A stretch of DNA of 10,835 bases. Origin: an uncultured Ruminococcus sp. (GTDB lineage: Bacteria > Bacillota > Clostridia > Oscillospirales > Acutalibacteraceae). This document shows, one piece after another, positions 6,071 through 6,151 of this stretch. The first letter of the stretch is position 1. Each line of letters begins with the position of its first letter. The notes under the pieces are model-generated. The model made no database searches, was not told where the DNA came from, and saw only the letters and a program-made list of their open reading frames with translations. The stretch is from positions 1-10,835 of the forward strand of contig CALZCU010000010.1 in the NCBI GenBank assembly GCA_945632055.1, given 5' to 3'. The translations under genes were made by a program, and so were the position numbers.

Positions 6071-6151
6071 CTGTCTGTCTGACTGTCTGTCTGTCTATCT
6101 GTCTATCTATCTGTCTGTCTGTCTGTCTGTCTGTCTGTCTGTCTGTCTGTC
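6071..6151. repeat. Tetranucleotide (CTGT)n tract, 20 units
   Basis: Twenty consecutive 4-base units span 6071-6150 plus one extra C. Units 11-20 (6111-6150) are ten perfect CTGT copies; among units 1-10 there is one CTGA and three CTAT variants. On the minus strand it reads (ACAG)n and lies in the predicted leader of the MBOAT operon, about 240 nt before its start codon. Pure tracts of this length change copy number by slipped-strand mispairing in known phase-variable loci. Confidence 0.97.

Follow-up and report, generated by a model that had tools for sequence, protein, structure and literature searches.

The window, i.e., the whole 10,835-bp stretch of contig DNA from an uncultured Ruminococcus sp. 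that was analysed, carries a twenty-unit ACAG tract that abuts a sigma-70-type promoter-like motif and precedes an MBOAT O-acyltransferase gene. Tracts of the same unit recur with the same promoter geometry and orientation in related genomes and in viral contigs, and the window tract probably belongs to a family of contingency loci in which a promoter fires into a slipping (ACAG)n tract, with frame switching where the tract lies in genes and graded tuning where it lies in leaders. In this mechanism, a sigma-70-type promoter would fire into the tract, and slipped-strand mispairing would alter the unit number. Where the tract lies in a gene or at its start, the unit number modulo 3 would set the reading frame and so decide between the on state, the off state or a choice of C-terminus. 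A leader tract, as in the window, would be the 5'-terminal part of the mRNA, with hairpins and a terminator-like stem behind it, and its unit number would tune, in a graded way, the amount of MBOAT/AlgX transcript made or passing the leader. The window tract itself is a half-degenerate member of the family with a weak -10 hexamer, which makes switching at this locus less certain than in the family at large.

The ACAG tract and its predicted promoter in the window

The features of the locus, all on the minus strand, are given below in the direction of transcription.

6226..6254, minus strand: upstream promoter-like site, TTGATT-17-TATAAT with TG, found by the consensus promoter scan
6178..6183, minus strand: -35 hexamer TTGACA of the tract-abutting promoter, exact, starting at -33 relative to the first ACAG
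6154..6159, minus strand: -10-like hexamer TACGCT at 18-bp spacing, weak (three of the six letters of TATAAT), with A2 and T6 present
6071..6150, minus strand: (ACAG)20 tract, ten perfect units on the promoter side, then ten units including four variants
6051..6077, minus strand: T1, a small hairpin formed by the final tract units and a GTCTG immediately 3' of them, followed by CGCTTTTC; -8.4 kcal/mol, z -1.6, weak
5969..6012, minus strand: strong leader hairpin with a U-rich tail, terminator-like (core 6008-5973); -27.3 kcal/mol, z -7.4
5863..5958, minus strand: T2, terminator-like stem (5958-5871) with a T-run; -33.3 kcal/mol, z -1.9; the stem ends 38 nt before the MBOAT start
4414..5832, minus strand: MBOAT O-acyltransferase, first gene; Pfam MBOAT 1.1e-24
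3196..4404, minus strand: AlgX-like SGNH protein, second gene; Pfam ALGX 3.6e-6, 27.3 bits against a cut-off of 26.5

Tandem Repeats Finder returned a period-4 array at 6071-6151 with 20.2 copies, 92% matches and the consensus CTGT. When the units were counted, those at 6111-6150 were ten perfect CTGT and those at 6071-6110 were six perfect and four variant ones (ATAG three times and TCAG once, read as ACAG), i.e., 16 of 20 were perfect; both methods agree with the sequence-only reading, which had described twenty units with ten perfect ones in a single run. Four tandem units with at most one mismatch were matched 13 times in the window, always within the tract, and never in 200 dinucleotide shuffles of the window; the assembly to which the window belongs, a fragmentary bin (1.41 Mb, 285 contigs, 77% complete), contained only these 13 matches. 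The tract is thus long, mostly perfect, short in its unit and beyond chance, as is required of a simple sequence repeat (SSR) contingency locus. Its position is also one from which expression could be altered, since a promoter-like site, the tract and the MBOAT gene follow one another on the same strand.

The tract lies outside the coding region and heads the MBOAT/AlgX-like pair, just as had been proposed. The proposed order of promoter, tract and MBOAT start holds as well, with the correction that the tract does not lie in the middle of a leader but abuts a TTGACA/-10 promoter such as the other tracts have. This promoter did not appear in the consensus scan because its -10 hexamer is weak. 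The window nevertheless has both elements of the promoter-anchored (ACAG)n module found elsewhere, namely TTGACA 28-36 bp upstream on the same strand and a -10 hexamer with A2 and T6 at a spacing of 16-18. Transcription in the window is therefore predicted to start within the first tract units, and the tract should form the extreme 5' end of the transcript. A transcription start between the tract and the MBOAT gene had been named as an observation that would speak against a role of the tract; the consensus scan, which can miss weak promoters, placed no minus-strand promoter there.

Distribution and promoter-tract geometry of the family

In a collection containing one genome per species, 17 of the 161 genomes of the genus and 15 of 394 from a sample of the order carried five perfect ACAG units; both counts include the genome of the window. 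The composite pattern TTGACA-N(20-32)-tract was present in 17/161 genus, 14/394 order and 4/398 phylum genomes, with the window's genome counted each time; the order matches fell into 13 of 168 genera and ten families, and two of the four phylum matches lay outside the class. The reversed promoter-tract pattern was absent from the same genus (161), order (394) and phylum (398) genomes. Additionally, no other tetranucleotide tract of at least five units was seen in 1.04 Mb of fetched loci. The genus provided 25 tracts or tract pieces, of which 23 were examined (G179:C50 and G181:C57 were left out), and one locus per genome from 14 other genomes of the order sample brought the set to 37 tracts, 32 of them with upstream sequence; several tracts lie at contig ends.

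Exact TTGACA began at -36 to -28 in 27 of the 32 evaluable tracts, and at least five of its six letters were present in 30, against 0.5% (6/1216) and 6.4% (78/1216), respectively, of background windows elsewhere upstream. The opposite-strand control does not discriminate, since TGTCAA nearly matches the resident TTGACAA (15/32 tracts reached five of six letters). The usual order is TTGACA, approximately 17 bp, a hexamer of the NACAAT type, usually two to six bases and then ACAG. The A at position 2 (A2) and the T at position 6 (T6) are the most important letters of the -10 hexamer. A hexamer with A2 and T6 at a spacing of 16-18 was found in 14/16 leader loci, in 17/17 coding loci (including L235, L236, L237 and L240, whose assignment to this class is a guess because they break off within the tract) and in 29/32 viral loci, with 3.6, 4.0 and 7.3 loci, respectively, expected from shuffled spacers. 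Note that the -10 hexamer was outside every search pattern and that some leader and coding loci had been found via TTGACA. Given the sigma-70 spacing between TTGACA and the -10-like hexamer, and judging from the usual distances, transcription is expected to begin in the first tract units.

The genes linked to these tracts gave Pfam matches to Acyl_transf_3 (five times), GT2, GtrII, DegT, HsdS (L258), EcoRI methylase (L219), LRR_5, List_Bact-repeat and, weakly, Glug. The kinds of gene represented, namely those for acyltransferases, glycosyltransferases, HsdS, DNA methylases and secreted repeat proteins, are classic targets of phase variation. The suggestion that enzymes acetylating surface polymers are targets of phase variation was strengthened in this way, as related tracts occur at textbook phase-variable genes, among them the five of the Acyl_transf_3 type. 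The wider idea of phase variation gained support for the tract family, from the linked genes and from the frame states between loci described below, and the window locus itself stands as a candidate.

Tracts within genes

At seven tracts, the tract runs directly into a protein that lacks its own start codon where the N-terminus would be expected: L222 (GT2), L224, L233, the second tract of L234, L238 and L239 (all Acyl_transf_3), and the first tract of L234 (GtrII). TTG adjoins each of these seven tracts, and by eye a purine-rich stretch precedes it; L220 (DegT) resembles them and is cut by a contig end. In four further loci, the tract lies inside hsdS (L258 by Pfam; L241, L248 and L252 by likeness), and in two inside an EcoRI-type methylase gene (L219 by Pfam and L229 by homology). 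Among the 11 coding loci with complete tracts, i.e., the seven with TTG and the four in hsdS, three are in frame (L222 with its TTG, L248 and L258 throughout) and eight are out of frame, the latter keeping frames of at least 226 aa behind or across the tract. Such a mixture of states between loci is what reversible switching would leave. The hsdS gene of L258 also contains TAEL-type peptide repeats between its first two specificity domains, the ACAG tract being located between later domains.

In the EcoRI-type methylase loci (L219 on G061:C36, and L228 and L229 on G129:C49 and C52), the tract precedes the last strand of the protein, and the three frames behind it stop at +40, +206 and +384 in both L219 and L228. 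Each C-terminus is of the YARILIKRR type, in all three frames, and in L219 the frame with its stop at +40 matches the Pfam model over its full length. So, the unit number could select among three methylase C-termini. For the GT2 protein, no unit-number variants were seen among the 120 homologues listed of 556 matches; a 100%-identical entry among the matches listed has 333 aa, against 356 counted from TTG, and its annotated start differs.

The TTG beside the tract leads to another possible function in the window leader, in which translation from this codon would pass through the tract as (TDRQ)n and the frame would control the terminator-like stem before MBOAT, giving phase-variable attenuation. 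TTG does abut the window tract, an ORF at 6195-6103 enters it, and the same codon with its purine-rich stretch stands before the seven gene-starting tracts, but it would remain untranscribed if transcription starts in the tract, in the window an ATAG unit within the tract closes this frame, and the leader loci L223, L226, L230 and L232 have no TTG. Frame switching of the leader is, on this balance, quite improbable.

Tracts in viral contigs

The promoter-plus-tract pattern was matched by 90 stretches in viral contigs, 80 loci of which were listed, and a scan for five-unit tracts gave at least 120 stretches, with 74 tracts having upstream sequence among the 80 stretches listed. The viral status of these contigs rests on the collection, and some may be chromosomal. 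Among the 74 tracts listed, TTGACA was exact in 32 and present with at least five of six letters in 43 (background, 0.9% and 9.1%), and fewer than five letters were matched in 31, which may come from unrelated hosts. In four viral proteins that were checked, the tract lay inside the gene: two PAPS-reductase-like proteins, one C5 methylase and one N6-methylase/HsdS protein. Five viral proteins of the PAPS-reductase type (L402 and L341 by Pfam, with L329, L385 and L337) carry (TDRQ)n in the middle of the protein; the DNA upstream has TTGACA at L402, L341, L329 and L385 and TTGCAA at L337. By their repeats, these genes are candidates for phase variation.

Where the promoter-like motif lies within viral genes, TTGACA occurs in one codon phase in 19 of 26 ORFs and in a second in 7, which argues for selection on DNA. 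A protein motif as the sole cause was rejected for this reason and because the leader loci are non-coding; the simplest reading appears to be selection on DNA, to which protein constraint may add, as most viral cases are in one phase.

These intragenic motifs bring in a further explanation, namely that transcription initiating within the repeat would open the DNA and thereby promote slippage; the promoter would then be kept for the tract and not only for the gene. It would account for the promoter-like motif within hsdS, EcoRI-type methylase and viral PAPS-reductase-like genes, where a transcript from the tract could not be expected to make the whole protein, and it is consistent with the two codon phases of TTGACA and with the tractless methylase homologues L301-L303, which have no promoter-like motif at the corresponding place (a fourth, L300, is cut by a contig end). 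A further, weak point for this explanation is that, of 11 tracts, 8 have their variant units distally and 3 at the first unit (p about 0.02). At the same time, the promoter and the linked gene are co-oriented in the loci read, which is equally compatible with gene expression, and the polarity concerns 11 tracts, several with the boundary unit as their sole variant, with L227 and L250 (fewer than eight units, variant first unit) outside the length limit. A plainer reading of the intragenic promoters is that they serve downstream genes when the frame is shut. Promoter-driven mutability is offered as a tentative and rather doubtful explanation. The broadest version, a portable hypermutation module in which (ACAG)n mutates itself by being transcribed and which, in bacteria of the phylum and in their viruses, would switch surface, restriction-modification and DNA-modification genes from a leader or from mid-gene, is likewise speculative, if perhaps marginally less doubtful.

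Leader loci

The preferred reading, a promoter-anchored contingency tract, has its non-coding form in the leader loci, which contain 4 to 25 units. The genes behind them encode proteins with LRR_5, List_Bact-repeat or weak Glug matches, the MBOAT protein in the window and, with models below cut-off, a signal peptidase I, a Cache/HAMP receptor and an AraC-like protein. Sixteen leaders were taken from 23 folded loci, L221, L226, L246, L262, L267, L268 and L272 being omitted for an unclear gene start or doubtful class. In thirteen of the 16, a terminator-like stem with an energy of -17 kcal/mol or lower lies between tract and gene, and each of these stems outdid the ten mononucleotide shuffles of its own sequence; the best of ten shuffles also passed -17 kcal/mol in 4/16 leaders (L225, L230, L231 and L243), and in L225 it beat the real sequence. 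In six leaders (L223, L227, L232, L257, L282 and the window), at most 42 nt separate the end of the stem from the start codon; a further promoter would hardly fit there, and read-through should therefore be needed. A layout like that of T1 was also present in relatives: outside the genus, 11 of 14 loci have, by eye, a CTGT able to pair with the last tract units and then a T-rich stretch.

In the window leader, T2 falls on one of the copies of a dispersed intergenic repeat and, at z -1.9, is to be taken as this repeat rather than as a clearly dedicated attenuator. The repeat has dozens of copies in 1.4 Mb, partly in tandem at 96-97 bp spacing, with copies in the window at 5866-5965 and about 9966-10090 and others on contigs of the same genome such as G000:C154, C72 and C100. 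The tract is not part of it, as 45 further matches in the same assembly end by query base 115 of 401 (position ~5974), i.e., before the tract. Rfam release 15 gave no match at the gathering threshold in the leader or elsewhere in the window, and no DNA similar to window positions 5833-6300 was found in phage records. Antitermination by LoaP was also considered and set aside, as 0/161 congeners (the window's genome being 77% complete) scored above the NCBIfam cut-off; the model was matched below cut-off in 128/161 congeners and also in 13/14 control genomes, as expected for ordinary NusG.

The MBOAT and AlgX-like SGNH pair is compatible with surface O-acylation by its domain matches. Identification of the first gene as DltB was rejected, since the DltB model scored 140.8 against a cut-off of 375, and the gene was not given this name. 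Its nearest named relatives are from a Bacillota bin (82%) and from Ruminococcaceae bacterium P7 (77%); others carry titles such as Sheep_Omasum and Goat_Omasum, so the source is apparently a clostridial bacterium and may have lived in a ruminant gut. Conservation of the tract at this operon was rejected too: none of 109 MBOAT-relative loci (29, L052-L080, and 80, L111-L190), some of them cut by contig ends, had at least four units. The tract could accordingly be the neutral remnant of a decaying microsatellite at this operon, having no effect on MBOAT, and this absence from the relatives would suit such a remnant, as would the variants in four of the ten far units and the dispersed repeat with its terminator-like stem that separates tract and gene. 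However, ten perfect units persist beside an intact TTGACA, and the succession of promoter, tract, hairpins and gene is that of the leader class, which makes a remnant of this kind unlikely.

Two other repeats were observed in the window. A perfect 13-bp inverted repeat, TATCGGCAAAATA / TATTTTGCCGATA, was noticed by eye at 6323-6335 and 6362-6374; one arm overlaps the core promoter (6358-6386) of the divergent gene, which encodes a Fic protein with an N-terminal HTH match, and the repeat is a candidate operator for autoregulation of this gene. At 9495-9683, a 101-bp unit is repeated 1.9 times with 100% matches in a repeat-rich intergenic region flanked by an alpha-amylase gene and a gene for a TPP-enzyme domain.

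Comparison with known systems

Most known examples of phase variation by short repeats come from Gram-negative pathogens. Among the open-licence PMC papers listed, titles and abstract openings contained nothing on ACAG tracts or on SSR phase variation in Clostridia. The leader tracts can be compared to uspA2 of Moraxella catarrhalis, a surface-protein gene for which passages of two papers describe a tetranucleotide AGAT tract in the 5' untranslated region upstream of the ORF, with 6-23 units depending on the strain and a graded transcript level (PMC7302503, PMC4679880). That system differs from the ACAG family in its unit, in being one gene and in belonging to a proteobacterium, and the uspA2 passages of these papers mention no tract-abutting promoter or terminator-bearing leader (PMC7302503, PMC4679880). 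By this analogy, we infer that the leader tracts may tune expression as the AGAT tract of uspA2 does.

In Haemophilus influenzae, a passage on lgtC (GACA) and on the O-acetylase gene oafA (GCAA) derives the on or off state from the repeat number (PMC3938747). The GACA unit of lgtC is ACAG in another register, and the kinds of target, a glycosyltransferase and an O-acetylase, are shared with the ACAG family; the passages on these genes describe no TTGACA/-10 module before the tract, and the window tract lies well before its gene (PMC3938747). Another paper describes, in the same species, TA repeats at hifA/hifB and a CAAG tract that lies 58 bp upstream of a gene for an EcoRI-type methylase (PMC2651432). 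The former resemble the ACAG tracts as SSRs tied to a promoter, but lie between the hexamers, whereas the ACAG tract is 3' of the -10; the latter shares with the ACAG family the combination of an EcoRI-type methylase gene and a tetranucleotide tract, but its tract is upstream, whereas the ACAG tract is intragenic and leads into three alternative C-termini (PMC2651432).

One repeat unit with a fixed promoter geometry, shared by ten families of a single order and by viral contigs, would make switch loci recognisable and searchable in bacteria that are mostly uncultured. The hsdS and methylase genes among these loci are candidates for the switching of whole regulons via DNA methylation. Moreover, the family poses a testable mechanistic question, namely whether a promoter firing into a repeat sets the mutation rate of that repeat.
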